Below, piece by piece: positions 10,714-26,187 of a stretch of DNA of 64,000 nt. The position numbers were made by a program, and so were the translations under genes. Within the stretch, counting starts at the first letter, position 1. Every line of letters begins with the position of its first letter. The stretch comes from Planosporangium mesophilum. Lineage in GTDB: Bacteria > Actinomycetota > Actinomycetes > Mycobacteriales > Micromonosporaceae. The notes beneath the pieces are model-generated. The model searched no databases, had not been told where the DNA came from, and was given only the letters and a program-made list of their open reading frames with translations. The stretch lies in contig NZ_BOON01000041.1 in the NCBI RefSeq assembly GCF_016863255.1, forward strand, positions 1-64,000. The letters run 5' to 3'.

Positions 10714-11592
10714 TCAGGACGAGCGGGTACGCGGCCGGCGCCAGCCCCGCTGGAGCAGGTGGTCGACGAGCAGCAGGGTCGGCCCGCTCGCGTGCTCGAC
10801 GGAGGCCGCGTGCCAGGGCCGGCGCAGGGGGGTACCCGGGACCGGCACGACCGCCAACCGCCCCTCGGCCAGCTCCCGCTCCACCGCGGCCCGGGACACC
10901 AGCGTCAGCCCGAGCCCGGCGACCGCCCCGGCCACCACCGCGCCGTTGGACCCCAGGACCAGCCGGGGCGGGTCGATCTCCAGCCCGGCCAGCAGCGACT
11001 CGCAGGTGGACCGGGTACCCGAGCCGGGCTCCCGGAGCAGCCAGGTGCGGCCCGCGAGGTCTGCCTGCGCGCCGGTCCCACCCGCCTCCACCACCACCAG
11101 TTCGTTCGGGAGCGCAGCCCTTACCCGCGCGTCCAGGCCCGCCGGTGGCCGGCCGGCGATGGTCAGGTCGACGGCGTGGTCGCGCAGCAGCGTCCAGACG
11201 TGGTCGCTCGCCCCGACCGAGAGCCGGATCTGGATGCCCGGGTGCGCCGTGCGGAACGAGGCCAACAGGTCGGGCAGGAGATGGTCGGCGGCGGTGGTGA
11301 CGGCCCCGACCGCCACCTCGCCGCGCTCCGGGTCGAGTTCGCCCCGGGCTGCGGCGCCGGCCCGGTCCAGCAGGCCGAGCATCTGGCGGGCGTACCGGGC
11401 GTAGACCCGGCCCGACGGGGTCAGCCGCAGGCCGCGCCCGTCCCGCTCGACGAGCGCGACGCCGACGTCGCGGCTGAGCGCGGCGACGGCGGCCGACACC
11501 GCGGACTCGGTGACCACCAGGCGGCGGGCAGCCTCCCGGACCGAGCCGGAGTCGGCGACCTCGACGAACGCGCGCAGCCTCGGGAACGTCAC
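10714..11592 (-). CDS. cbbR: LysR-type regulator of the RuBisCO operon
   Basis: A 292-residue LysR-family protein. Residues 1-60 form the winged HTH (LRAFVEVADSGSVREAARRL and VTESAVSAAVAALSRDVG); residues ~90-290 are the periplasmic-binding-like effector domain (GEVAVGAVTTAADHLLPDLL). It is transcribed divergently from cbbL with 99 bp between start codons, the classical CbbR arrangement. CbbR proteins are known to activate cbb operons in response to Calvin-cycle metabolites or nucleotides. The symbol rests on this position; the family alone would not fix it. Confidence 0.85.
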   Translation of the reverse strand: MTFPRLRAFVEVADSGSVREAARRLVVTESAVSAAVAALSRDVGVALVERDGRGLRLTPSGRVYARYARQMLGLLDRAGAAARGELDPERGEVAVGAVTTAADHLLPDLLASFRTAHPGIQIRLSVGASDHVWTLLRDHAVDLTIAGRPPAGLDARVRAALPNELVVVEAGGTGAQADLAGRTWLLREPGSGTRSTCESLLAGLEIDPPRLVLGSNGAVVAGAVAGLGLTLVSRAAVERELAEGRLAVVPVPGTPLRRPWHAASVEHASGPTLLLVDHLLQRGWRRPRTRSS

Positions 11593-11676: not shown

Positions 11677-13131
<1,455 letters not shown>

Positions 13132-13144
13132 GAGGAGGCGCGCG

Positions 13145-13570
13145 ATGCGGATCACCCAGGGCACGTTCTCGTACCTGCCGGACCTCAGCGACGACGAGAT
13201 CAGGGCGCAGATCCAGTACGCCCTCGACAACGGCTGGCCGTTGTCGGTGGAGTTCACCGACGACCCGCACCCCCGCAACAGCTACTGGGAGATGTGGGGG
13301 CTGCCGATGTTCGACCTGCACGACGCGGCCGGGGTGCTGTACGAGGTGAACGAGTGCCGCCGCGCGTACCCCAACCGGTACATCAAGGTGAACGCCTACG
13401 ACGCGCGGTTCGGGCGGCAGACCACCGCGCTGTCGTTCATCGTGAGCCGGCCCGCGGAAGAGCCCGGGTTCCGGCTCGACCGGCAGGAGTCGGCCGGCCG
13501 GATGATCCGCTACACCACCCATCCGTACGCGCTGGACCTGCCGTCCGGCGACCGGTACCCGCAGCCGTGA
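13145..13570 (+). CDS. cbbS: RuBisCO small subunit
   Basis: A 141-residue protein beginning [19 protein letters not shown], with [20 protein letters not shown] and the C-terminal beta-hairpin extension ([19 protein letters not shown]) typical of red-type small subunits. The ATG is preceded by aggaggaggcg, the best ribosome site of the cluster. It caps the L8S8 holoenzyme. The stop overlaps the GTG of cbbX by 4 bp, so small subunit and activase synthesis are coupled. Confidence 0.96.
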
Positions 13571-14562
13571 CCGGCGGGCGACCCGCGTTCGGCATGCGCG
13601 GTGATATCGGCGAAGCCGACGGGCGGGTGTCCGACGACGCCGATGATCGGCTCCCCGACGACGCCACCGTCGACCTCGCCGCCGAACGCGCGGCCGCCGG
13701 CATCGACGAGGTGCTCGACTCGTTGGACCGGGAGCTGGTCGGGCTCGCGGCGGTGAAGACGCGGATCAGCGAGATCGCCGCCCTGCTGCTCGTGGACCGG
13801 GTACGGGCGAGGTTCGGCCTGTCGGCCTCCCGGCCGAACCTGCACATGTCGTTCACCGGCAGCCCCGGTACCGGCAAGACGACCGTGGCGATGCGCATGG
13901 CGGAACTGCTGCGCCGGGTCGGGTACCTCGAACGCGGCCACCTGGTCGCGGTGACCCGCGACGACCTGGTCGGGCAGTATGTCGGGCACACCGCGCCGAA
14001 GACCCGCGAGGTGCTCAAGCGGGCTATGGGCGGGGTGCTTTTCATCGACGAGGCGTACTACCTGTACCGGGCCGAGAACGAGCGGGACTACGGCCAGGAG
14101 GCGATCGAGATCCTGCTCCAGGTCATGGAGAACCAGCGGGACGACATCGTGGTGATCCTGGCCGGCTACGCCGAGCGGATGGACACCTTCTTCGCCTCCA
14201 ACCCGGGGATGAGCTCCCGGATCGCCCACCACCTGAACTTTCCCGACTACGACCTGGACGAGCTGGCGGCGATCGGTGGACTGATGCTGGAGCAGCAGCG
14301 GTACCGGCTGTCGGAGGACGCCGAGGAGACATTCCGCGAGTACCTGCGGCTGCGGATGCTGCGCCCGCGCTTCGCGAACGCCCGCAGCGTCCGCAACGCC
14401 GTGGAGCGGGCGAGGTTGCGGCACGCCAACCGCCTGCTCGGTGGTGCCGGGCACGCGTGGACCAGGGACGACCTGATGCGGTTGGAGCCGGCGGACTTCC
14501 TGGCCAGCCGGGTGTTCAGGGAGGCGGAGCCGCCGTCCGGCCCTGTCGGGGGACCCGGCTAA
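13567..14562 (+). CDS. cbbX: Red-type RuBisCO activase CbbX (AAA+)
   Basis: A 331-residue AAA+ ATPase. Walker A is GSPGTGKTT (residues 98-106), Walker [11 protein letters not shown] (around 157-166), with sensor/Arg-finger region [14 protein letters not shown] and a helical lid ending near residue 310. CbbX is known to remodel inhibited red-type RuBisCO by pulling on the CbbL C terminus, and is itself activated by RuBP. The GTG at 13567 is chosen because it overlaps the cbbS stop (GTGA); ATG 13594 is an alternative. The first 45 residues are acidic and variable. Completes the cbbLSX operon. Confidence 0.95.
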
Positions 14563-15504: not shown

Positions 15505-16002
15505 TCAGCGGCCGATAACGTCGAGAAAGACGGTGCCGCTGCTGATATCGAGATAGACGGGCCCGCTGTATCGGGCTGTGCGCACGTCCTTGGCGAACTC
15601 ATCGCTGACCTGCCAGGCGCCGGCCGCGGGTAGGAAGGGGCGCAGCTCGGCACGTAGCGACGCATCCCAGTTCGCGGGCGCGGGCTTCCACTTGTAGCGC
15701 GAGGCGGCCGATGCGAGGGCCTGGGGCGGCAGCACTGCCAGCGCCTGGATGTGCACGTCGGTAGGCCCGGGTACGCCACCGTTGTCGGACCCGGCCGCCG
15801 AGCCCTGCCAGTGGACCGTGGTGAAATCACCGAGCTGAGGAAAGCGCTTCGCGATCGGCTCCCGGTCGGTACGCACTGCCGACGTGCTCATGGTGGTGGT
15901 CCTCTCCGCGGGGCGTCGGTCGGTGGGGGAGCTGCCTTGGGTGCAGCCGGTGAGAGCCAGCAGGGTCACCGACAATACGGCCGCGGCGCGCAGGTCAGCC
16001 AT
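15505..16002 (-). CDS. Secreted lipoprotein of unknown function
   Basis: A 165-residue protein with a lipobox: hydrophobic residues ~6-18 followed by LTGC, so Cys would be lipidated. The mature part has no recognisable domain; it contains GGVPGPTDVHIQALAVL and ends in a strand-rich segment (YSGPVYLDISSGTVFLDVI). The ATG at 16002 lies 8 bp inside the upstream gene, so it is translationally linked to the large WXG-type protein. An outer-surface partner of that exported protein is a reasonable inference, not shown. Confidence 0.6.
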   Translation of the reverse strand: MADLRAAAVLSVTLLALTGCTQGSSPTDRRPAERTTTMSTSAVRTDREPIAKRFPQLGDFTTVHWQGSAAGSDNGGVPGPTDVHIQALAVLPPQALASAASRYKWKPAPANWDASLRAELRPFLPAAGAWQVSDEFAKDVRTARYSGPVYLDISSGTVFLDVIGR

Positions 16003-17365
16003 TGTTGCGCCGGTCCACGCGGTCCTCACCGGGAGCGTTGCGTTCGGGGCCGGTGTCGGCGCTGACGTCGGACGACTCGCCGATCGTCCATGTCACAGTG
16101 CGTTCCACCTGTCCGTGCGTAGGGAACCCCTTGGCCCAGCCAAGAGTTGAGAACCGGCCGTTTTCGTTGTCGGGTGCCCCGGTGGCGATGTCGGCGGCGT
16201 TCGCGTTGAAGTTGTACATGTCCTCGGCGTGTACCTTGATCTTCATCGTGATCTGGTTGCCGTTGACGACCACGTCGGACGTGCCGTAGACGGTGTGGTC
16301 GCCGAGGGCCTTCTGCCAGTTCTCGGTCGCTGGGTAGCCGCCCAGAGCCGTGACTGAGGATGGGTTTCCCGTCATCTGGAAGCCGGTCTGTCCGGTCTCG
16401 CGGTAGATCCGCTCCGCCTCCTTCTGCGCGGAGAGGATCTCATTGTCCACCGCCAGTCGGATGTTCGCGTCCTCCCGGTACGCCTCCTCGTAGTCCACCC
16501 GCAGGTCCGTGCCGGTTCCGTCCATGTAATGGGCGTAGGCGGCGGTGGCGTCGTCCAGGTCGACCCGAAGCAACTGGCCACCGCGCAGCTTGGCCTTCCA
16601 CTTGGCCCAGCTGGCGTAGTCGCCGGGCGTCGGCGCGGCGTTGGGGTCGTATGGGAAGTCGTCGTCGAACGTCAGGTCGGGCGCCGTCGGCGGTCCGACG
16701 TGGTATTTGCCGTGGATATCCTCCAGGCCCGGCGTCTCGTCAACGATCTTCGCGCTGAGTGGTGAGCTCGCCAGGAAGTCGGGCAGTAGCCGATAGGCCG
16801 CGGTGAGCTGGCCGACGGCGTCTTCGCGCGCTTCCGTCTCGATACGGAGCGCGTCGTCGTAGGCGGCGGTGGCGCGGTGCCACAGCCGGTCGGCTTCGGC
16901 GCGTACCTTCTCGATCTCGTCGTGGACGCCGAGCTCGATCAGCCAGTCCGTGACTCCGGTGGTACTGCGCAGGTCGTTCCACTGCCGCAGCGGGTCGGAG
17001 AAGCGCACCTGCAATGACTGGGTGGCCACGATAGGTGCGATCAGCGCGTGCAACTGGCCCTCCGCGGTGACACCGTCCGCCACCAGTGTCTGGGCTTGGA
17101 CCTGTGCCCGAGCATAGGCGGTGACAGCCTGCCCAGCCTTGTCGAACCCGTCATGTAGACCCTCGGCGAGGTCGATCGTCTCCTTGAGGCGCCGCTCGTA
17201 GAGATCCGCCGCATCGGATCTCCACTCCACCTTGCCTGGCAGGCCGTCGAGCGTTGGCAGTGCCGTACGAATGATGCTCTTGGTGCGTAGGCACTCCTCG
17301 CCGACCGCGTTGACGAAGCCGGGATTCATGTCCTCGATGTACTTCGCCGCGTCGTGGTAGGCCAT
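15995..17365 (-). CDS. Large helical ESX-type protein with novel C-terminal domain
   Basis: A 456-residue protein. Residues 1-110 are helical with W-R-S-D (VEWRSDAADLYERRL), the turn of WXG100-like type VII substrates. A second coiled helical stretch covers ~150-210. Residues ~220-290 are Pro/Asp-rich. The last ~150 residues form a separate alpha/beta domain: YEEAYREDANIRLAVDNEI, then HTVYGTSDVVVNGNQITMKI and a Trp-containing GWAKGFPTHG, with strands of a small lipocalin- or barrel-like fold. No signal peptide. It resembles a polymorphic-toxin layout, but the C-terminal domain is unknown to me. An immunity gene, if any, might be the downstream lipoprotein. Confidence 0.55.
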   Translation of the reverse strand: MAYHDAAKYIEDMNPGFVNAVGEECLRTKSIIRTALPTLDGLPGKVEWRSDAADLYERRLKETIDLAEGLHDGFDKAGQAVTAYARAQVQAQTLVADGVTAEGQLHALIAPIVATQSLQVRFSDPLRQWNDLRSTTGVTDWLIELGVHDEIEKVRAEADRLWHRATAAYDDALRIETEAREDAVGQLTAAYRLLPDFLASSPLSAKIVDETPGLEDIHGKYHVGPPTAPDLTFDDDFPYDPNAAPTPGDYASWAKWKAKLRGGQLLRVDLDDATAAYAHYMDGTGTDLRVDYEEAYREDANIRLAVDNEILSAQKEAERIYRETGQTGFQMTGNPSSVTALGGYPATENWQKALGDHTVYGTSDVVVNGNQITMKIKVHAEDMYNFNANAADIATGAPDNENGRFSTLGWAKGFPTHGQVERTVTWTIGESSDVSADTGPERNAPGEDRVDRRNNG

Positions 17366-18223: not shown

Positions 18224-18387
18224 GCCGGCGACTGTTTCCCCGGGGAGTCGATCACTTTCGTTGTCGATCCCCGGCGCGTTCGGCTACCGTCGGGGGCGGC
18301 CCGCGCCTTGACAGGTTACGGGCCGTTTCCCTGCGGATGACCTCGACAGGGTGGTGGGCGTGGCGATGTCGAGGGAGGCGTCGGAAC

Positions 18388-19293
18388 ATGGTCTCCCCGA
18401 TGGCGGTGGAGCGGCTGCAGCGTGGTGATCACGCGTGCTGGCTGTACAGCGACGAGCCGCAACGGCTGACTGCCACGGCCCGGTACGTGCAGGCCGGGCT
18501 CGACGGCGGCGAGAAGGTGCTCCTGCTCACCGAGAGCATCCGGCCCGACGCGTTGCTGGCCGGCCTCGACGCGCACGGTGTCGACGGGGCCGCACCGACC
18601 CGGTCCGGTCAACTCGAGATCATCACGGCGGATGAGGCATACCTGGCCACCCGTGGTTTCGACCCGGAGGTGATGATCGCGGGCTGGCCCGGTGTGATCG
18701 CGTCGGCCCGCGACGGTGGGTGGTCCGGTCTGCGGGTGGCCGCGGACATGAGCTGGGCACTGCGGGCGACCGTCGACGACTCCCGGCTGGCCTGGTACGA
18801 AGCGCACGTCAACGCCGTGTTCAGCGACACCTACACGACCGTGGTGTGCCAGTACGACCGGAGCCGGTTTCCGGCGACTGAGCTGCGCCGGATCTCGGCG
18901 GCCCATCCGGCGACGATCCCGGTGGGCGCGGACGGTGCCTGGGAACCGTTGCTGCACGTGACGCGCATGACCGACCCACCCGGGCTTCGCCTGTCCGGTG
19001 AGGTGGACATGTCCAACCGCCCCGCGGTCGCCGCGACGCTGTACGACGGGATCGCGGACGGTGCACACAGCGGGCGGGAGTTCGTCGTCGACGTCGCCGC
19101 GCTCCGGTTCGCAGACGTGGCTACCGCGGAGCTGCTGGTGGCCGCGGCCCGGACCGGCCCGGCCGGCCTTGCCGTCGTCGGTTGTTCGCCTGCCCTGGCC
19201 AGGATGATGACCTGGGTGGCTGAGGCCGACGGCGCCGGTGCTGAGGCGGCTGTGCCTGGGTTGAGGATCGTTGTCCGGGAGCGGGCGTCATGA
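18388..19293 (+). CDS. MEDS-domain sensor fused to a STAS domain
   Basis: A 301-residue protein. Residues ~5-190 are a MEDS domain (RGDHACWLYSDEPQRLTATA, then VQAGLDGGEKVLLLTES and LRVAADMSWALR), the DcmR sensory fold thought to bind hydrocarbon-like or unknown ligands. Residues ~205-300 look like STAS (LRLSGEVDMSNRPAVAATL, FVVDVAALRFADVATAELLV), as in anti-anti-sigma factors; the usual phosphorylatable Ser position is Ala/Thr here. Start at 18388 has gggagg 9 nt upstream. It overlaps the next gene (ATGA), which carries the matching kinase fold, so the two form a sensory switch pair. Confidence 0.85.
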   Translation: MVSPMAVERLQRGDHACWLYSDEPQRLTATARYVQAGLDGGEKVLLLTESIRPDALLAGLDAHGVDGAAPTRSGQLEIITADEAYLATRGFDPEVMIAGWPGVIASARDGGWSGLRVAADMSWALRATVDDSRLAWYEAHVNAVFSDTYTTVVCQYDRSRFPATELRRISAAHPATIPVGADGAWEPLLHVTRMTDPPGLRLSGEVDMSNRPAVAATLYDGIADGAHSGREFVVDVAALRFADVATAELLVAAARTGPAGLAVVGCSPALARMMTWVAEADGAGAEAAVPGLRIVVRERAS

Positions 19294-20240
19294 CTGTCGT
19301 GGCAGAGACCGGGGCCCGGCCCCGGGGTGATTTCGATCACCTGGCCCTGTTCTACCGGAACTCCGACGAGTTCGCGGCGGGCGCCGTCGCGTTCGTGCGG
19401 GACGGGCTGGCAGCCGGGGAGCCGACGCTGGTGTCCCTGGCGGGTGAGCACCTGGACCTCATCCGCGGCCGGTTCGGCGGGTACGGCGCCGACGTCCGTT
19501 TCCTCGACGCCGCGGCGGCCGCCCGTAACCCCGGGCGGATCATCGCGGAGGTGCTGTGGCCGTTCGCCGCCGCGCATCCCGGCCGGCGGGTACGCGTCGT
19601 CGGTGAGTCGATCTGGCCCGGTCGCGCCGGGTTCGAATACCACGCCTGCGTGGCGCACGAGTCCGCGATCAACGCCGTGTTCGCCGGTCACGATGCGGCC
19701 ATGCTGTGCCTGTACGACGCTGTGGGCCTGCCCGAGACCGTGCTGTCCGACGCCGGTCGCACCCATCCGCTGCTGACGGACGGTGCCCGGATCAGCATCA
19801 GTCCCGGCTACGCCGCTCCGGAGGCGATCGTCCTGCGGGACCGGCGACTACCCGAGGCCCCGGCTACGGCGGTGACCATGGTGTACTCCGACGAGTCGAT
19901 GCTGCGCCAGGTACGGCGCTTCGTCGTCGCGCACGCCGCCACCGCGGACCTGAGCCCCGAGCGGGCCGACGACCTGTGCGTCGCCGTGAACGAACTGGCC
20001 TCCAACACTCTCCGGTACACCGCCGGGCCCGGCCGCTTGTCCATCTGGACCGAGGCTGACGTCCTGGTCTGCCAGATCGACGACGACGGTCACATCACCG
20101 ACCCGACGGTCGGCCGCGTCCCGCCCGGCCACGACCGCACGGGCGGCCGCGGCCTGCTACTGGCCCATCGGCTCTGTGACCTGACGTGCATCCACAGCAG
20201 TGGCGAAGGCACCCGGATCCGGGTACACGTCAACCGGTAG
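19290..20240 (+). CDS. MEDS-domain sensor fused to a HATPase (anti-sigma-type kinase)
   Basis: A 316-residue protein. Residues ~10-180 repeat the MEDS fold (DHLALFYRNSDEFAAGAVAF, VRVVGESIWPGR, HESAINAVFAGHDAAML). Residues ~195-316 are an RsbW-like HATPase_c: N-box VAVNELASNTLRYT, then QIDDDGHITDPT and GRGLLLAHRLCDL. The combination is a soluble ligand-sensing anti-sigma/serine-kinase-like protein. It overlaps the MEDS-STAS gene and is followed by a GAF gene 100 bp on. A 62-bp piece of this gene is duplicated at 8204-8265. Confidence 0.87.
   Translation: MTVVAETGARPRGDFDHLALFYRNSDEFAAGAVAFVRDGLAAGEPTLVSLAGEHLDLIRGRFGGYGADVRFLDAAAAARNPGRIIAEVLWPFAAAHPGRRVRVVGESIWPGRAGFEYHACVAHESAINAVFAGHDAAMLCLYDAVGLPETVLSDAGRTHPLLTDGARISISPGYAAPEAIVLRDRRLPEAPATAVTMVYSDESMLRQVRRFVVAHAATADLSPERADDLCVAVNELASNTLRYTAGPGRLSIWTEADVLVCQIDDDGHITDPTVGRVPPGHDRTGGRGLLLAHRLCDLTCIHSSGEGTRIRVHVNR
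19650..19711. repeat. 62-bp segment duplicated at 8204-8265
   Basis: Source copy of the exact duplication; it lies within the MEDS domain of the MEDS-ATPase gene and encodes HESAINAVFAGHDAAMLCL. Confidence 0.97.
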
Positions 20241-20340
20241 CCCGGCTGCGGGTGGCCGAACGGTTGCCATAGCATGATCGAATAGCTGGCGGGTGTCCGC
20301 TGAAACCGCTGCGGCAGTCGGTGAAAGGGGAAGAGCCGAG

Positions 20341-21159
20341 TTGTCCACGACCGTTGACGGCACCGCCCTGAACGACCCGGCCAGGCTGGCCGCGGTGCAC
20401 CGCTACGAGATCCTCGACGCCCCCCGCGACGGGGAGTTCGACGTGATCGCGGAAGCAGCCGCCGCGCTGTGCGGCACCCCGATCGCCACTGTCAGCATCG
20501 TCGACGCCGACCGGGTGTGGTTCGCCGCTGCCCAGGGTCTTGACGGTGTCGCTCAGGTGGGCACCGAGCCGGGCCTGTGTGCGTCGGCTTTCCTGGCCGA
20601 TGACGTGTACGTCGTCAACGACGCCTCGATCGACCCTCGTACTCTCGACCACCCGTTGGTGCGCGGCGAGTTGGGGCTGCGCTTCTACGCGGCCGCGCCG
20701 ATCACCACCGCCGATGGATACCACCTGGGCACCGTCACCGCCATCGACTCCACCCCGCGGGAGTTGACCGAAGCGCAGACCGCCGTGCTGGGCAAGCTCG
20801 CCACGGTGGCCGCCCAGCAGCTGGAGCTGCGCCTGTCCGCCATCAAGGCGGTACGGGCCGAGCGGCAGCTACGGGCCGAGGCCGAAGAGCGCGCCGCCGC
20901 TTCGGCGAAGCTGGCCATGCAGATGCGTGAGGCCGCCGAAGCGCAGCGCAACACCCCCCACCCGGCACTGTGCCAGCTCGGGGGCACCGAGGGCTGCTCC
21001 GCCCCGGCGGAGCTGAAGGTCGCCGACTCGTGGGGCGACTCCGCCTGGGGCTGCGCCGCGCACGTCGAGGAAGCCATCATCAACGTCCGGTCGGTCTTCA
21101 TCGCCAGCGAAGAGCTCAACGGACTGGCTGCTTACCGCAACCGCCACCGATCGCGCTGA
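20341..21159 (+). CDS. GAF-domain sensory protein
   Basis: A 272-residue protein. Residues ~10-160 form a GAF domain (RLAAVHRYEILDAPRDGEFD, then GTPIATVSIVDADRVWF, LRFYAAAPITTADGYHLGTV), as in two-component and cyclic-nucleotide sensors. A coiled coil (residues ~175-205, ERQLRAEAEERAAASAKLAM) links to a small Cys-containing tail with the pattern HPALCQLGGTEGC-C. TTG 20341 is chosen because aaggggaag lies 8 nt upstream; GTG 20293 is in frame. It probably supplies a further input to the MEDS pair. Confidence 0.75.
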   Translation: MSTTVDGTALNDPARLAAVHRYEILDAPRDGEFDVIAEAAAALCGTPIATVSIVDADRVWFAAAQGLDGVAQVGTEPGLCASAFLADDVYVVNDASIDPRTLDHPLVRGELGLRFYAAAPITTADGYHLGTVTAIDSTPRELTEAQTAVLGKLATVAAQQLELRLSAIKAVRAERQLRAEAEERAAASAKLAMQMREAAEAQRNTPHPALCQLGGTEGCSAPAELKVADSWGDSAWGCAAHVEEAIINVRSVFIASEELNGLAAYRNRHRSR

Positions 21160-21183: not shown

Positions 21184-21861
21184 CTATCGGCGGCGCCGCC
21201 AGCCGGGCGCCGGGTGCACGGCGCGCTGCAGTTCGGGCAGCTCGCTCAGCACGGCCGCGCGTACCGCCGCCAGGTCGGCGGCCGGCACCCGGTCGAGCAC
21301 GTCAGGGGCGTCGCCGGGCAGCGGCAGGTCCAGCGACCAGCTCGCCACCAGCAGGGCGACCAGCTCACCGAGGTCCAGCTCGTCCGGCGGTCCGCCGCCC
21401 AGGCTGATCAGCTGGCGCTGGAGCCGCCGCCGCTCCCGTACCGTGAAGGTGAGCGGATCCCGCAGCACCGCCCAGTGGCCGTCGGCCAGCGGCACCCGTT
21501 GCCCGGCGAGCAGCAGGTCGCGGATGGACAGGACGCCGAGCACCCCGGACCCGTCGGCCACGATGAGATGGCGGAAGTGGTGCGCGGCCATCTCGGCCGC
21601 CGCCTCGTAGATCTCCCAGTCCGGTTCGACCGTCACCACGTCGCGGGTCATCAGTTTCTCGACCCGGGTCTCGTCCAGCCCCATCCCCTCGGCTACCGCC
21701 CGCAGGACGTCCCGCTCGGTGAGGATCCCCACCAGGTTGTCCTCGTTCAGTACCACCGCCGAGCCGACCCGGTGCTCCACCATGTGCCGGGCCGCGTCGC
21801 GCAGGGACCATCCGGGCCCCACCGACACCACGTACGCGTTGCTCAGGTCGCCGACCTTCAT
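21184..21861 (-). CDS. CBS-domain pair protein
   Basis: A 225-residue protein. Residues 1-120 are two CBS motifs (SLRDAARHMVEHRVGSAVVL, LVGILTERDVL; then VEPDWEIYEAAAEMAAHHF and GVLGVLSIRDLL), which form a Bateman module known to bind AMP, ATP or S-adenosyl compounds. Residues ~125-225 are helical and polar with no clear domain. Its ATG overlaps the NuoF-like stop (ATGA), and that gene overlaps phosphoribulokinase, so it is the last gene of a tight operon. An adenylate-sensing control subunit is inferred. Confidence 0.83.
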   Translation of the reverse strand: MKVGDLSNAYVVSVGPGWSLRDAARHMVEHRVGSAVVLNEDNLVGILTERDVLRAVAEGMGLDETRVEKLMTRDVVTVEPDWEIYEAAAEMAAHHFRHLIVADGSGVLGVLSIRDLLLAGQRVPLADGHWAVLRDPLTFTVRERRRLQRQLISLGGGPPDELDLGELVALLVASWSLDLPLPGDAPDVLDRVPAADLAAVRAAVLSELPELQRAVHPAPGWRRRR

Positions 21862-23219
21862 ATCGACGTCACCTGGCCGGTGTCGAGCGGTTCGTAGCTC
21901 CAGTCCGGCAGCTTCCGGTCGTACCCGGTGTCGTACCTGAACCGGCCGGCCGTACGGTCGAAGTCGACGATCTTCGGAATCGGCAGCGCGCGCGGCCGTG
22001 GGCAGGCCCGGCCCAGGTGCGCGGCGAACTCGTCGGCGAACTGCTCCACACTGCTGCGTACCAGGCCTGCGTGGCCGACCGGCAGGGCGCACCGGTGGCC
22101 GCCGGTGACGCTGCGGCACTTGCCGGCCAGCGCGGCCAGGTCGTCCTCTTCGCCGTCGCCGCGCTCGATGCGCGCCAGGATCGCGCTGATGTCGTGCGAT
22201 CCGTTCTTGCAGGCGGGGCACTGCGCGCACGACTCGACGTAGAGGAATCGCGAGCAGGCCAGGGTGGCCGCGACGACGCAGCCGGAGCCGTCCAGGGCCA
22301 GGAAGCCGCCCGAGCCGAGGCCGGACCCGGCGTCCCGCAGCGCGTCGAACTCCAGCGGGGTGTCGAACCGGCGCCGGTCGAGCACGCCGTGCGAGACGCC
22401 GGGGAACACCGCCTTGAGGTCCTCGTCGCCGGGCGGTCCGCCGCCCACGTCGTACAGCAGGGTCCGCAGCGGTACGCCGAGCGGCAGCTCGTAGACGCCG
22501 GGTCGCCGGACGTCCCCGCAGAGCGTGAACAGCATCGTGCCCGGCGAACGGTCGGTCCCTAGTAGACGGAAATGCTCGGCACCGTCGCGGACGATGCGCG
22601 GCACGTTCGCCAGCGTCTCCACGTTGTTCACCAGGGTCGGGTTCGGCGAGCCGGGCCGGGCGAACAGGCCCACCTGGTACGAGGGCAGGATCCGGGGGAG
22701 CGGCTCGCTGTTCTCCAGTACCTCGAGGAGGGCCTTCTCCTCCCCGAAGAGGTACTCGTCCGGGCCGGCGGTGATCGTGACCGGTACCGGGCCGAGCAGG
22801 TCGGCCCGCTCCATCTCCTCGACCGCGCGCCGCAGGACCGCCAGCTCGTGCCGGTACCCGCCCTTGACCGCGACGTACGCGCAGGCCGCGCCGACCGCGT
22901 ACGCGGCGATCGCGAGCCCTTCGAGCACCTGGTACGGGTTGTGGCCCAGCAGCCACCGGTCCTTGAACGTCGCCGGCTCGCCCTCCGCCGCGTTGCACAC
23001 CACGAACCTCGTCGGACACGGGTGCTCGCTGATCGCCGACCACTTGACCCCGGTGGGAAAGCCGGCCCCGCCCCGACCGCGCAGCCCGGAGCGCCGCACC
23101 TCGTCGATGACCACGTCGGGCGGTACCCGCAGCGTGATGGAGAGCGCCTCCCCGCCGCCGGCGGCCCGGTACGCCGCCAGGGTCGTGACCGGCCCGCCGG
23201 CGAGCAGCACGCTGCTCAT
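21858..23219 (-). CDS. NuoF-like NADH:FMN/Fe-S diaphorase subunit (orphan)
   Basis: A 453-residue homologue of the 51-kDa complex I/hydrogenase flavin subunit. The FMN/NADH site is RGRGGAGFPTGVKW (47-60) with NAAEGEPATFKDR (76-88) and DEYLFGEEKALLEVLE. An SLBB-like segment follows (~240-280), then the N3-type 4Fe-4S ligands Cys331, Cys334, Cys337 (ESCAQCPACKNG) and Cys368. No NuoE, NuoG or hydrogenase gene is near. It overlaps phosphoribulokinase upstream and the CBS gene downstream. It would accept electrons from NAD(P)H; the acceptor is unknown. A 75-residue C-terminal extension beyond Cys368 is unusual. Confidence 0.87.
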   Translation of the reverse strand: MSSVLLAGGPVTTLAAYRAAGGGEALSITLRVPPDVVIDEVRRSGLRGRGGAGFPTGVKWSAISEHPCPTRFVVCNAAEGEPATFKDRWLLGHNPYQVLEGLAIAAYAVGAACAYVAVKGGYRHELAVLRRAVEEMERADLLGPVPVTITAGPDEYLFGEEKALLEVLENSEPLPRILPSYQVGLFARPGSPNPTLVNNVETLANVPRIVRDGAEHFRLLGTDRSPGTMLFTLCGDVRRPGVYELPLGVPLRTLLYDVGGGPPGDEDLKAVFPGVSHGVLDRRRFDTPLEFDALRDAGSGLGSGGFLALDGSGCVVAATLACSRFLYVESCAQCPACKNGSHDISAILARIERGDGEEDDLAALAGKCRSVTGGHRCALPVGHAGLVRSSVEQFADEFAAHLGRACPRPRALPIPKIVDFDRTAGRFRYDTGYDRKLPDWSYEPLDTGQVTSI

Positions 23220-24133
23220 CGGTCCGTACTCGCGGCCGCGGTGAGCAGGTGGTACGCGATGAAGAGCTGCCCGATGGCGAGCGGGTCGGAGTGGCGCCGC
23301 CGGTTGCCCTCCAGGAACATGCCGATCGTGCGGCGCTGTACGTGGTGGTCGAAGTCCATCCGGTCCCACAGCAGCGACTCCAGGTGCCTGGTCTCCTCCC
23401 GGGAGATGTCGCGGTCCACGTCGAACAGGTCGACCGGGTGGCCCGCGTCCCGGCCCAGCCGCAGCCGTACCGAACCGCAGCCGTCCGCCGCCGCCTTGTC
23501 GACCAGTTCGGTGAGGGCGCGGTGCGAGATCGTCGGGCGCAGCACCATGGACAGGGCCAGCCGGGAGTCGTCGACCGACCCCTCGACCGGCTGGAACCGC
23601 ACCACGATGTCGGCGGTGTCGCGCTGCGGGCGTACAAACGCCGCCGAGTCCGGCTCGCGCCGCTTCAGCTCCGCGACGACCTCTTCCGGGGTGTACCCGC
23701 GGGCGGCGCAGTCGCGGCGAACCTTCCACACGCGACGGAGCTCCTCCGCCGGGTCGAGGTAGACCGTCACCGCGAAGCAGTTGCGCATCGCCCTGGTGGT
23801 CAACGACAGCAACCCCTCGACCACCATGAACTGCCGCGGTGCGAGGTACTCGGGAGCGGCGAACGTACCGTTGCGGTGGTCGTACACCGGCTTGAGCAGC
23901 GGCTCTCCGGCCGCGAGCAGCCGCAGGTGCTGCGCCAGGATGTCCATGTGGTTGCACTCCGCGTGCAGCGGGGTGATGTCCAGCTCGCGGCGGCGGACCC
24001 GGTCGTAGCGGTGGTAGTCGTCGGTGCACAGCTGTCCGACGCGGCCGTGCCCGAGGATCTGGAGCAGTCCATCGGTGAAGGTCGTCTTGCCGGCGGCGCT
24101 GTCGCCGGCGATTCCGAGTATGGCTGGCCTCAT
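23216..24133 (-). CDS. Phosphoribulokinase
   Basis: A 305-residue kinase. P-loop GDSAAGKTT (10-18), then LCTDDYHRYDRVRRREL and TPLHAECNHMDIL, matching the substrate-binding segment that separates phosphoribulokinases from uridine kinases; EGLLSLTTRAMRNCF follows. It would make ribulose-1,5-bisphosphate from ribulose-5-phosphate and ATP, the substrate of the RuBisCO encoded 10 kb away. First gene of the kinase/NuoF-like/CBS operon, divergent from a response regulator. Uridine kinase is the main alternative; the presence of cbbLSX favours phosphoribulokinase. A cbbP/prk symbol is plausible but not given because the cluster is atypical. Confidence 0.83.
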   Translation of the reverse strand: MRPAILGIAGDSAAGKTTFTDGLLQILGHGRVGQLCTDDYHRYDRVRRRELDITPLHAECNHMDILAQHLRLLAAGEPLLKPVYDHRNGTFAAPEYLAPRQFMVVEGLLSLTTRAMRNCFAVTVYLDPAEELRRVWKVRRDCAARGYTPEEVVAELKRREPDSAAFVRPQRDTADIVVRFQPVEGSVDDSRLALSMVLRPTISHRALTELVDKAAADGCGSVRLRLGRDAGHPVDLFDVDRDISREETRHLESLLWDRMDFDHHVQRRTIGMFLEGNRRRHSDPLAIGQLFIAYHLLTAAASTDR

Positions 24134-24293
24134 GCCCCTTCACCTCCGTGCCTGGATGGTCACCGTAGGGCACGGGCGGGGCTCGGGGCATCCTTCCAGC
24201 GGGGTGGAGTAGAGGGGGGAAACGACCTCCCCCACCACGGGGAATTCACTCCTGTCACTCGGTTACCGGGGCAAGCGTACGTACCCTGTCAGG

Positions 24294-24959
24294 ATGGGAA
24301 GCAGTCGTTCGCTGCTTCGGCTGATGGCCGTCGACGACCACCAGATGGTGCTTGACGGTCTGGGGGCGATGCTGGCCCCGTACTCCGACCGGGTCGAGAT
24401 CGTCGCGGAGACCCGGGAGCCCGCCCAGGCGCTCGACCTCGTCGTCCAGTGCGAGCCCGACGTGGTGCTGCTCGACGTCCGCCTCAAGGACAGCAGCGGG
24501 CTCGACCTGTGCGCCGACATCCTCCGCCGCCGGCCGGAGTGCAAGGTCGTCTTCCTGACCGTGTACGACGACGAGCAGTACCTCTACCAGGCGCTGCGGC
24601 TGGGCGCCTCGGGCTTCCTGCTCAAACGGGTACGCGGCGGTGAGTTGGTCGACTACCTGACCCGCATCTGTGAGGGGGAGGTGCTGATCGACCCGACGCT
24701 CGCGGGGCGGGTGGCGCTGTCCGCCGCCCGCCTGCACAGCCAGCGCTTCTGGCCGGGTGCGCACCTGGGCCTGACCCAGCGGGAGAGCGAGGTCCTCGCG
24801 CTGCTCGTGGCAGGGCAGTCCAACCGGGCGATCGGCGCCCGGCTCACCATCGGCGAGGAGACGGTCAAGAGCCACGTCCGTGCCGTGTACCGCAAGCTCG
24901 GCGTCTCCGACCGGGCCGCCGCGGTCGCCGTCGCGCTGCGCGAGGGGGTCTTCCGATGA
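24294..24959 (+). CDS. LuxR-type response regulator
   Basis: A 221-residue two-domain regulator. Receiver: acidic pair AVDDHQ, phosphoacceptor Asp61 in VVLLDVRL, Thr in VVFLTVYDD, Lys in FLLKRV. C-terminal LuxR HTH: LTQRESEVLALLVAGQSNRA and TVKSHVRAVYRKLGV. Its partner kinase begins 16 bp downstream. It diverges from the phosphoribulokinase operon across a 160-bp gap, so control of that operon by this pair is a natural hypothesis. Confidence 0.92.
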   Translation: MGSSRSLLRLMAVDDHQMVLDGLGAMLAPYSDRVEIVAETREPAQALDLVVQCEPDVVLLDVRLKDSSGLDLCADILRRRPECKVVFLTVYDDEQYLYQALRLGASGFLLKRVRGGELVDYLTRICEGEVLIDPTLAGRVALSAARLHSQRFWPGAHLGLTQRESEVLALLVAGQSNRAIGARLTIGEETVKSHVRAVYRKLGVSDRAAAVAVALREGVFR

Positions 24960-24975
24960 AGAACGGCGTCCTCCG

Positions 24976-26187
24976 GTGACCGGCCTCGGGTTGACCGACG
25001 CCGCACAGGAGGCCCGGCTGCTCTCCCGGATCATCGAGACCATCTCGACCGGCCTCGACCTGGACGCGATCGTCCGGGCCGTCGCCGCGCTGATCATCGA
25101 GACCACCGCGACGGACGTCTGCTTCGTACACGTGCTGGACGACACCGGGCGGCGCCTGCACCTGCGCGGCGCGACGCCGCCGTTCGACGCCCTCGCGGGG
25201 CACATCGAACTTGCCGTGGGGGAGGGGGTGGCCGGGTGGGTGGCCGCGCACGGCGAACCCGTCGTCATCGTCGACAACAAGCTCGCCGACCACCGGTACA
25301 AGTACATCCCGGCCCTGCGTGGCGAGGACTTCACGTCGCTGGCCTCGGTACCGGTCACCACCCCGACCGGACACCTCGTCGGCGTGCTCAACGTGCACAG
25401 CCGGCGTCGCCGCGAGTTCACCGACGTCGACGTGCGGCTGCTCGGTACGGTCGCCGGGCTGATGGCCGGCGCCATCGAGAACGCCCGGCTGCACCAGCGG
25501 CTGGCCGAGCGCGAGGAGGCGCTGGAGCGCTTCGCCGAGCGGGTGGTACAGAGCCAGGAGGCGGAGCGGCGCCGGCTGGCAGGGGACATCCACGACGGGA
25601 TCAGTCAGCGGATCGTGAGCCTCAGCTTCCACCTGTCCGCTGCCGCCGACGCCCTCCCGTACGCCCCGGTGTACGCCGCCGGCCAGATCGCGCGGGCCCA
25701 GCGGCTGGCCGAGGCGGCGCTGGACGAGACCCGCTTCGCGATCGCCGGCCTGCGCCCGCCGGTCCTCGACGACCTCGGCCTGACCGCGAGCCTGGAGAGC
25801 CTGGCCGGCTCACTGCCCCATGTGGAGGTACACGTCGAGGCGTCGCCCTGCCGGCTGCCCGAGCACGTGGAGACCGCCGTGTACCGCATCGCCCAGGAGG
25901 CGCTGCAGAACGTCGTCAAGCACGCCGGGGCGCGGACCGCGACGGTCCGGCTGGAGGTCGAGCCGGGTGGCGTGGTCCTGACCGTCTCCGACGACGGGCG
26001 GGGATTCGACCCGGCGGAGGTGGCGGAGCGGGCCGCGCCGACCTACGGGCTGGCCGGCATGCGGGAGCGCGCCGAACTGCTCGGGGGAGCGTTGACGCTG
26101 CGCAGCGGCCCCGGGGCGGGTACCACGCTGCGACTGGACGTACCGCTGCGGCTGGACGTACCGCCGCCGGCCGTCGGTGGGGGCTGA
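24976..26187 (+). CDS. GAF-containing sensor histidine kinase (HisKA_3 type)
   Basis: A 403-residue soluble kinase. Residues ~20-170 are a GAF domain (GLDLDAIVRAVAALIIETTA, VGEGVAGWVAAHGEPVVI, SVPVTTPTGHLVGVLNVHS), followed by a coiled linker. The DHp is the NarL-partner type with phosphorylatable His206 (AGDIHDGISQR). The ATPase has TAVYRIAQEALQNVVKHA, VSDDGRGFDP and GLAGMRERAELLGG. No membrane segment, so the signal is cytoplasmic. GTG 24976 follows the response regulator closely. Its stop lies inside a 38-bp palindrome. Confidence 0.92.
   Translation: MTGLGLTDAAQEARLLSRIIETISTGLDLDAIVRAVAALIIETTATDVCFVHVLDDTGRRLHLRGATPPFDALAGHIELAVGEGVAGWVAAHGEPVVIVDNKLADHRYKYIPALRGEDFTSLASVPVTTPTGHLVGVLNVHSRRRREFTDVDVRLLGTVAGLMAGAIENARLHQRLAEREEALERFAERVVQSQEAERRRLAGDIHDGISQRIVSLSFHLSAAADALPYAPVYAAGQIARAQRLAEAALDETRFAIAGLRPPVLDDLGLTASLESLAGSLPHVEVHVEASPCRLPEHVETAVYRIAQEALQNVVKHAGARTATVRLEVEPGGVVLTVSDDGRGFDPAEVAERAAPTYGLAGMRERAELLGGALTLRSGPGAGTTLRLDVPLRLDVPPPAVGGG

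Follow-up and report, generated by a model that had tools for sequence, protein, structure and literature searches.

Phosphoribulokinase, an orphan NuoF-like protein and an undescribed small domain form a Calvin-cycle-linked gene module in Actinobacteria

Results

The stretch of DNA analysed here, hereafter the window, comprises 64,000 nucleotides of Planosporangium mesophilum (Actinomycetota; NZ_BOON01000041.1, positions 1–64,000). Its minus strand carries in tandem three intact open reading frames (ORFs), for a phosphoribulokinase (PRK), an orphan NuoF-like protein and a protein with a pair of CBS domains. As a preliminary description of this DNA had stated, the frames overlap by ATGA at both junctions (PRK/NuoF at 23216-23219, NuoF/CBS at 21858-21861). 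We compared this operon with stretches from relatives (labelled L) and with their genomes (labelled G). The arrangement is almost certainly a real and conserved module of Actinobacteria that is linked to the Calvin cycle. Four observations form its basis: the coupling of the genes, the descent of the NuoF proteins from one clade, their linkage, seen in several families, to genes of the Calvin cycle, and a promoter box shared by some relatives.

21184..21861, minus strand: CBS-pair protein with an undescribed C-terminal domain, 225 amino acids, no cysteine; ATGA overlap with the NuoF stop
21187..21483, minus strand: the C-terminal domain (CTD), about 95-99 amino acids in the window; homologous to stand-alone 78-amino-acid proteins of L130 and L132
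21858..23219, minus strand: orphan NuoF-like NADH/FMN/4Fe-4S protein, 453 amino acids; ATGA overlap with the PRK stop
23216..24133, minus strand: PRK, 305 amino acids; P-loop GDSAAGKT, without a P-loop cysteine

Could this gene order be unique to one genome? It is not: the ATGA overlap of PRK and NuoF recurs in L130, and the NuoF-CBS/CTD pair is found in L094, L102 and L241, where it adjoins Calvin-cycle genes. An intact NuoF gene overlaps the CBS/CTD gene in all seven loci concerned (window, L093, L094, L102, L130, L132 and L241), by ATGA or GTGA in five and by 8 bases in L093 and L094, with the first start codon of the ORF assumed. PRK overlaps NuoF directly in two of the seven, the window and L130, both times by ATGA. 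The coupled trio of kinase, NuoF and CBS protein proposed earlier is thus present in the window, but the tight partner of NuoF across loci is CBS/CTD and not PRK. L130 shows the order histidine kinase, response regulator, PRK, NuoF, CTD, cbbL, cbbS, cbbX, in which PRK-NuoF-CTD-cbbL form one run of overlapping genes. The pair is found again next to Calvin-cycle genes in further families, so its association is more than chance. Two further loci hold remnants: L220 retains NuoF residues 4-87 only, followed by CBS-CTD from residue 38, and L221, a 4-kb contig, retains only a NuoF tail and a frame-shifted CBS-CTD. Both genomes are drafts, so this fragmentation may stem from assembly. In L241 a 206-residue ORF with no Pfam match lies between the CBS-CTD gene and cbbL (L241:10342-10962). 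Our literature search, with most subscription journals outside its coverage, returned no paper that we recognised as describing this gene arrangement.

What, then, is the constant partner of NuoF? As predicted, the window CBS protein contains two CBS domains (PF00571, 102.5 bits). T-x-x-D and S-x-x-D are motifs of the kind by which CBS domains bind adenylates, and both are invariant in the four fused CBS-CTD proteins aligned. In L130 (an Actinoallomurus metagenome-assembled genome) and L132 (a Streptosporangiaceae metagenome-assembled genome), the partner of NuoF is a 78-residue protein without CBS, homologous solely to the C-terminal end of the window CBS protein. Since these two loci retain the CTD alone, we rejected the CBS pair as the conserved partner: the constant partner of NuoF is the CTD, which spans 78-99 residues across homologues and occurs with or without CBS. 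The CBS protein named earlier as third component is therefore real in the window, while its CBS pair is not the constant part. With no Pfam or PHROG match at E<=10, the CTD is an undescribed small domain. A resemblance to phage tail chaperones was considered and dropped: there was no PHROG match and no viral relative, and none of 52 pattern-matching stretches was confirmed. AlphaFold models were of low confidence for the whole CBS protein (mean pLDDT 55.5) and for the CTD alone (mean pLDDT 64.9, four helices).

The CTD was found in nine genomes of three classes, L130 and L132 being among the matches listed in the contig scan, and the intact NuoF-CTD pair in two of these classes. Its profile matched 6/396 genomes of the phylum, 3/66 of the class of G437 (2/30 in a subset), 2/24 of the class of G207 and 2/394 of the window's class; these samples overlap one another. 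Eight of the nine CTD genomes carry the window's type of PRK, the exception being G379, which is 81% complete. cbbL lies in the same stretch in six of the nine (window, L241, L094, L102, L130 and L220). The stretches of L093, L132 and L221 are without cbbL, and G384 and G544 carry PRK on other contigs. Among the 396 phylum genomes, 34 encode this PRK type at E<=1e-40 and 40 an orphan-type NuoF at E<=1e-100, a threshold that omits at least G522 (orphan branch) and G393 (split gene). PRK is present in five of the six CTD-bearing phylum genomes versus 34/396 overall (Fisher p 2e-5). It had been proposed to ask whether NuoF homologues without NuoE track PRK. For orphan NuoF in general we rejected this, as PRK accompanies it in 4/35 genomes without CTD, against the background of 34/396 (Fisher p 0.35, or 0.26 minus the six CTD genomes); for the CTD-bearing genomes it holds. 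Most module-bearing Actinobacteria also carry a [NiFe]-hydrogenase, detected in seven of the eight CTD genomes searched, a count that has no background rate and leaves G595 outside. It lies on the contig of NuoF in G311 (about 12 kb away) and G437 (19 kb), and on another contig, C31, in the window's own genome.

The NuoF-like protein itself combines the Pfam domains Complex1_51K, SLBB and NADH_4Fe-4S, and scores under the cut-off of all three NuoF equivalog models that it matched (346/558.65, 269/389 and 237/749 bits). A tree of 69 sequences splits 46 orphan-type from 23 complex-I-like proteins with a support of 100/100. A contig-wide scan yielded at least 80 NuoF loci; 20 of them (L130-L149) were put in the tree, with L150-L209 outside it, and among the matches listed L130-L135 fell into the orphan branch and 14 into the complex-I-like branch. 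All four Fe-S (N3) cysteines are present in 46/46 orphan-type sequences aligned, as are most of the NADH/FMN residues examined. The aspartate of the NADEGEP motif has a role in the FMN/NADH site; it is alanine in 46/46 orphan-type and aspartate in 23/23 complex-I-like sequences. Of the intact FMN/NADH site and four Fe-S cysteines described before, the cysteines stand and the site is not fully intact.

The reported lack of a NuoE or NuoG partner extends well beyond the window. A phmmer search with the genome's own NuoE and NuoG (E<=1e-5) found neither near any of 47 orphan-type NuoF loci (773 kb, the whole 64-kb window included), and the same search recovered both at all five complex-I-type control loci. 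The best solved relatives of the window protein include NfnB, HydB and HoxF subunits. These bear an N-terminal extension, a thioredoxin-like 2Fe-2S domain; Pfam detects no domain of that kind in the window NuoF, whose alignment begins at residue 14, versus 131 in NfnB and 165 in HydB. Some NuoF match occurs in 146/150 genomes of the window's family, with the best E-values of other genomes at 7e-77 or weaker versus 0 here, and no second NuoF of this orphan type was found among the 150. Plasmid records gave 92 matches, all rhizobial and all below 60% identity. An orphan-type NuoF of 50% identity is encoded on a contig labelled Bacteroidota (L131:10001-11314).

In the tree, the seven NuoFs linked to a CTD group together as a single clade (support 88/71). 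Its sister group (fork 98/97) consists of L064, L091 and L092, all without CTD, two of which adjoin or lie near 2-oxoglutarate dehydrogenase genes. More widely, orphan NuoF genes without CTD are found beside or near multifunctional 2-oxoglutarate dehydrogenase (L103, L092 and, by clustering, L064), glutamate synthase (L124, L123), and aconitase with CBS-citrate synthase (L104 and, by clustering, L107). Within its partial coverage, the literature search found nothing on an orphan NuoF family beside these metabolic genes.

The preliminary description had placed cbbLSX in the same window and a divergent two-component system beside the operon; both are there, at 11.7-14.6 kb and 24294-26187, respectively.

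10714..11592, minus strand: LysR-type regulator, cbbR by position; divergent from cbbL
11692..13131, plus strand: cbbL, RuBisCO large subunit, by family match
13145..13570, plus strand: cbbS, RuBisCO small subunit; start by homology, inside ORF 13064-13570
13594..14562, plus strand: CbbX-type AAA protein; start approximate, inside ORF 13294-14562
24134..24293: intergenic region between PRK and response regulator; degenerate promoter-box copy at 24162-24206, minus strand
24294..24959, plus strand: response regulator (Response_reg and GerE/LuxR domains), divergent from PRK
24925..26187, plus strand: GAF-HisKA_3 histidine kinase; start uncertain, ORF opens at 24880

The cbbL and cbbS products belong to the RuBisCO large- and small-subunit families. 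We take the AAA protein to be CbbX from its gene position, and the RuBisCO may be of form IE. Adjoining the operon are two adjacent MEDS-domain proteins (MEDS-STAS and MEDS-HATPase, 18340-20240) and a GAF protein (20293-21159); a 456-residue ORF with no match in Pfam occupies 15995-17365.

Relatives of the two-component pair occur in all seven other PRK-bearing stretches from CTD genomes (L094, L102, L130, L220, L222, L225 and L241). For comparison, we used 29 PRK loci with up to 1.5-kb flanks, out of 38 PRK matches outside the window. The pair has relatives in five of these 29, in 0/30 other NuoF loci of the window's family and in 0/29 orphan NuoF loci.

A CBS-only protein lies directly downstream of PRK in five of the same 29 loci (L033, L034, L038, L044 and L057) and in none of the 30 other NuoF loci of the window's family (L003-L032). 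The Fisher p of 0.024 overstates this association, as four of the five cases come from one family (f9) and L034 is itself a CTD genome. CBS near orphan NuoF (L062-L090) was found in 5/29 loci, namely three CTD loci and two CBS-citrate synthases. At L220:5035-5833 and L038:680-1474, what follows PRK is either two separate proteins with a CBS pair each or a single protein with four CBS domains, and CTD is absent.

Several of the operons share a promoter box, CCCC-N1-6-GGGG and then 22-25 bases to TA[GC][CG]GT, a pattern derived post hoc by visual inspection of promoters. It occurs at PRK/NuoF operons and one transketolase gene (L094, L102, L130, L132, L222, L225, L241 and L047). Counting exact copies within 400 bases upstream, it precedes 4/8 PRK genes, 4/5 separate NuoF operons and 0/6 cbbL genes. 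Scanning 1.84 Mb, a figure that includes both strands, returned 13 matches. Nine lie just upstream of NuoF, PRK or the L102 transketolase, two of which (L094 NuoF and L102 transketolase) had not been used in finding the pattern; three lie elsewhere, and one between the L094 response regulator and transketolase. This last site (L094, minus strand 6733) was considered as a transketolase promoter and dropped, since some 0.9 kb separate it from where the transketolase match begins. Another 3.19 Mb added seven matches, of which three were known sites, one was a new PRK promoter (G289) and three lay elsewhere. In leave-one-genome-out scans with a two-block matrix, a promoter of NuoF or PRK scored highest in 6/6 loci. 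In L241 the same box stands upstream of both the NuoF and the PRK operon, which are separate. The window copy is degenerate, fails the exact pattern and lies outside the window's 12 best sites. At L132:9740-10010 the NuoF promoter is similar to that of PRK in L130, and the NuoF start still carries an ATGA, which would fit the loss of PRK from what was once a PRK-NuoF operon.

Discussion

Why would a NADH-binding subunit and a CBS protein be encoded with a Calvin-cycle kinase? A stand-alone NuoF together with the CTD, usually CBS-fused, looks like a unit dedicated to CO2 fixation, either for control by energy status or for electron supply. We tentatively favour control, at slightly less than even chances: the module would adjust Calvin-cycle flux, with NuoF reporting NADH and the CBS pair reporting adenylates, and PRK would be the likeliest target. 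Slightly more doubtful is the proposition that the module has a regulatory output and that this output extends to PRK. Judging from the conserved residues, NuoF would bind NADH and oxidise it via FMN and one 4Fe-4S cluster, and its redox state could thereby report NADH supply. The orphan NuoF and the CTD would act as a functional unit, the CTD presumably docking on NuoF, and the CBS pair, where present, would be expected to bind adenylates. Three points make it plausible that adenylates are linked to the kinase: CBS-only proteins follow PRK at some loci, CBS-CP12 of cyanobacteria is reported to bind AMP and to inhibit the thioredoxin-dependent activation of PRK (PMC9406205), and class I PRKs are described as activated by NADH and inhibited by AMP (PMC4806589). 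NuoF and CBS/CTD might supply from outside the NADH/AMP response that is built into class I PRKs.

Several findings weigh against this interpretation. PRK lies elsewhere in the cluster in L241, L094 and L102 and on another contig in L132 and L093, the NuoF gene is fragmentary in G207 and G379, and 29 of the 34 PRK genomes of the phylum sample are without CTD, so the module is dispensable. Support for the clade of CTD-linked NuoFs is moderate, and the CBS-beside-PRK cases are biased towards a single family. The box is missing at PRK of the window, L094, L102 and L220 and at NuoF of L093; the L241 PRK site is not among its four best when G595 is left out; and the degenerate state of the window copy counts against extending shared-box control to the window. 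Adenylate sensing is not constant, as CBS is absent from L130 and L132. The four cluster cysteines kept in every orphan-type sequence fit electron transfer better than sensing. Finally, the CBS protein, with 0 cysteines in 225 residues, cannot carry electrons by thiols or by a cysteine-bound cluster. As for the interpretation offered before, recurrence of the arrangement and the identity of the kinase are upheld, whereas the FMN site has to be described as modified and, in the neighbourhood survey then proposed, orphan NuoF in general does not track PRK.

Could the unit supply electrons to the Calvin cycle instead? This is nearly as likely as control. The orphan NuoF would then transfer electrons between NADH and a carrier, either ferredoxin-like or derived from hydrogenase, with the CTD, fused to CBS or not, in a regulatory or docking role and PRK as no more than a co-expressed neighbour. 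Retention of the four N3 cysteines and most NADH/FMN residues speaks for it, since a pure sensor would need no Fe-S cluster, and so does the hydrogenase in most CTD genomes, on the contig of NuoF in two of them. Relatives without CTD stand beside 2-oxoglutarate dehydrogenase, glutamate synthase, aconitase or citrate synthase, which suggests a redox enzyme. On the other side, we saw no gene for a ferredoxin next to the module, although no search was aimed at ferredoxins, a NuoE/NuoG-type partner is missing at all 47 loci, and the genome's own hydrogenase is on a different contig. CBS proteins beside PRK without NuoF moreover point to a separate adenylate link.

It is improbable that NuoF and CBS/CTD are merely an unrelated pair placed in a Calvin-cycle gene cluster and co-expressed with it. 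NuoF and PRK are apart in several relatives, and most PRK genomes of the phylum sample do without the pair, as this explanation would have it. Against it, the linkage recurs in several families, the CTD occurs in three classes and the intact pair in two, the separate NuoF and PRK operons of L241 share one box, the CTD-linked NuoFs are one clade, and the CTD was seen in PRK genomes only, save the incomplete G379.

The kinase matches Pfam PF00485 (115.7 bits), and its closest solved relatives, with about 290 bits and the same SAAGKTT P-loop, are 9qkn, 9qko and 9qkp. That it is a uridine-kinase-like enzyme rather than a PRK is very hard to credit: 9qkn bears the title 'uridine kinase', but 9qko and 9qkp bear that of 'cyanobacteria specific phosphoribulokinase', the window kinase scores 353 bits against NCBIfam PRK07429 phosphoribulokinase (cut-off 236) and 92 and 77 bits against uridine kinase models (cut-offs 180 and 220), and no other protein of the genome, which also encodes cbbLS, matches it at E<=0.001. 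The phosphoribulokinase of the preliminary description is thus borne out by family score. The named structures are cyanobacterial and the window kinase actinobacterial; the literature search met no paper recognisably on these structures.

CO2-fixing bacteria living on trace H2 or CO are reported to be widespread in cold desert soils (PMC9561532), and our literature search found no paper on energy-dependent switching of CO2 fixation in actinobacteria with this kinase. The NuoF-CTD-PRK unit is a concrete, assayable candidate for switching CO2 fixation with energy supply, and the analysis also brings to light a small domain without previous description and a family of orphan NuoF proteins that is large.

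How does the module compare with known systems? One member of the N-terminal regulatory cysteine pair of PRK is the P-loop cysteine. The canonical kinases 6gve and 6hzk carry it; it is replaced (GDSA[AS]GKT) in 10/10 sequences, the window kinase and nine related actinobacterial kinases. Thioredoxin/CP12-regulated PRK is characterised by that N-terminal pair (PMC9199185), and by this pair, to which the comparison was confined, the window kinase falls outside the class; with the P-loop cysteine absent throughout, thioredoxin control via the N-terminal pair is unlikely. Compared with the earlier analogy to CP12/thioredoxin control, CBS-CP12 and the NADH-activated, AMP-inhibited PRKs are closer parallels.

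With complex I NuoF and with HoxF, HydB and NfnB, the window NuoF has in common the Complex1_51K, SLBB and 4Fe-4S domains and the four cluster cysteines. It differs in having no NuoE/NuoG partner and no N-terminal extension, in the exchange of aspartate for alanine and in its separate branch. The window module would read the same two signals as class I PRKs, NADH and AMP; these PRKs have the response inside the kinase, whereas in the window it would reside in separate proteins. Like CBS-CP12, the window protein fuses two CBS domains to a small PRK-linked domain that is also found alone, as 78 residues for the CTD and about 80 for CP12. Unlike CBS-CP12, it has no CP12 domain (Pfam gives CBS alone), no AWD_VEEL motif by inspection and no cysteine pairs; its partner is an orphan NuoF and its host belongs to the Actinomycetota. 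A NADH-reading orphan NuoF, coupled to PRK in hydrogenase-bearing Actinobacteria by a new domain, free-standing or joined to a CBS adenylate sensor, may conceivably be a counterpart of CP12 and CBS-CP12 assembled from unrelated parts, a comparison that we put forward more hesitantly than either control or electron supply.

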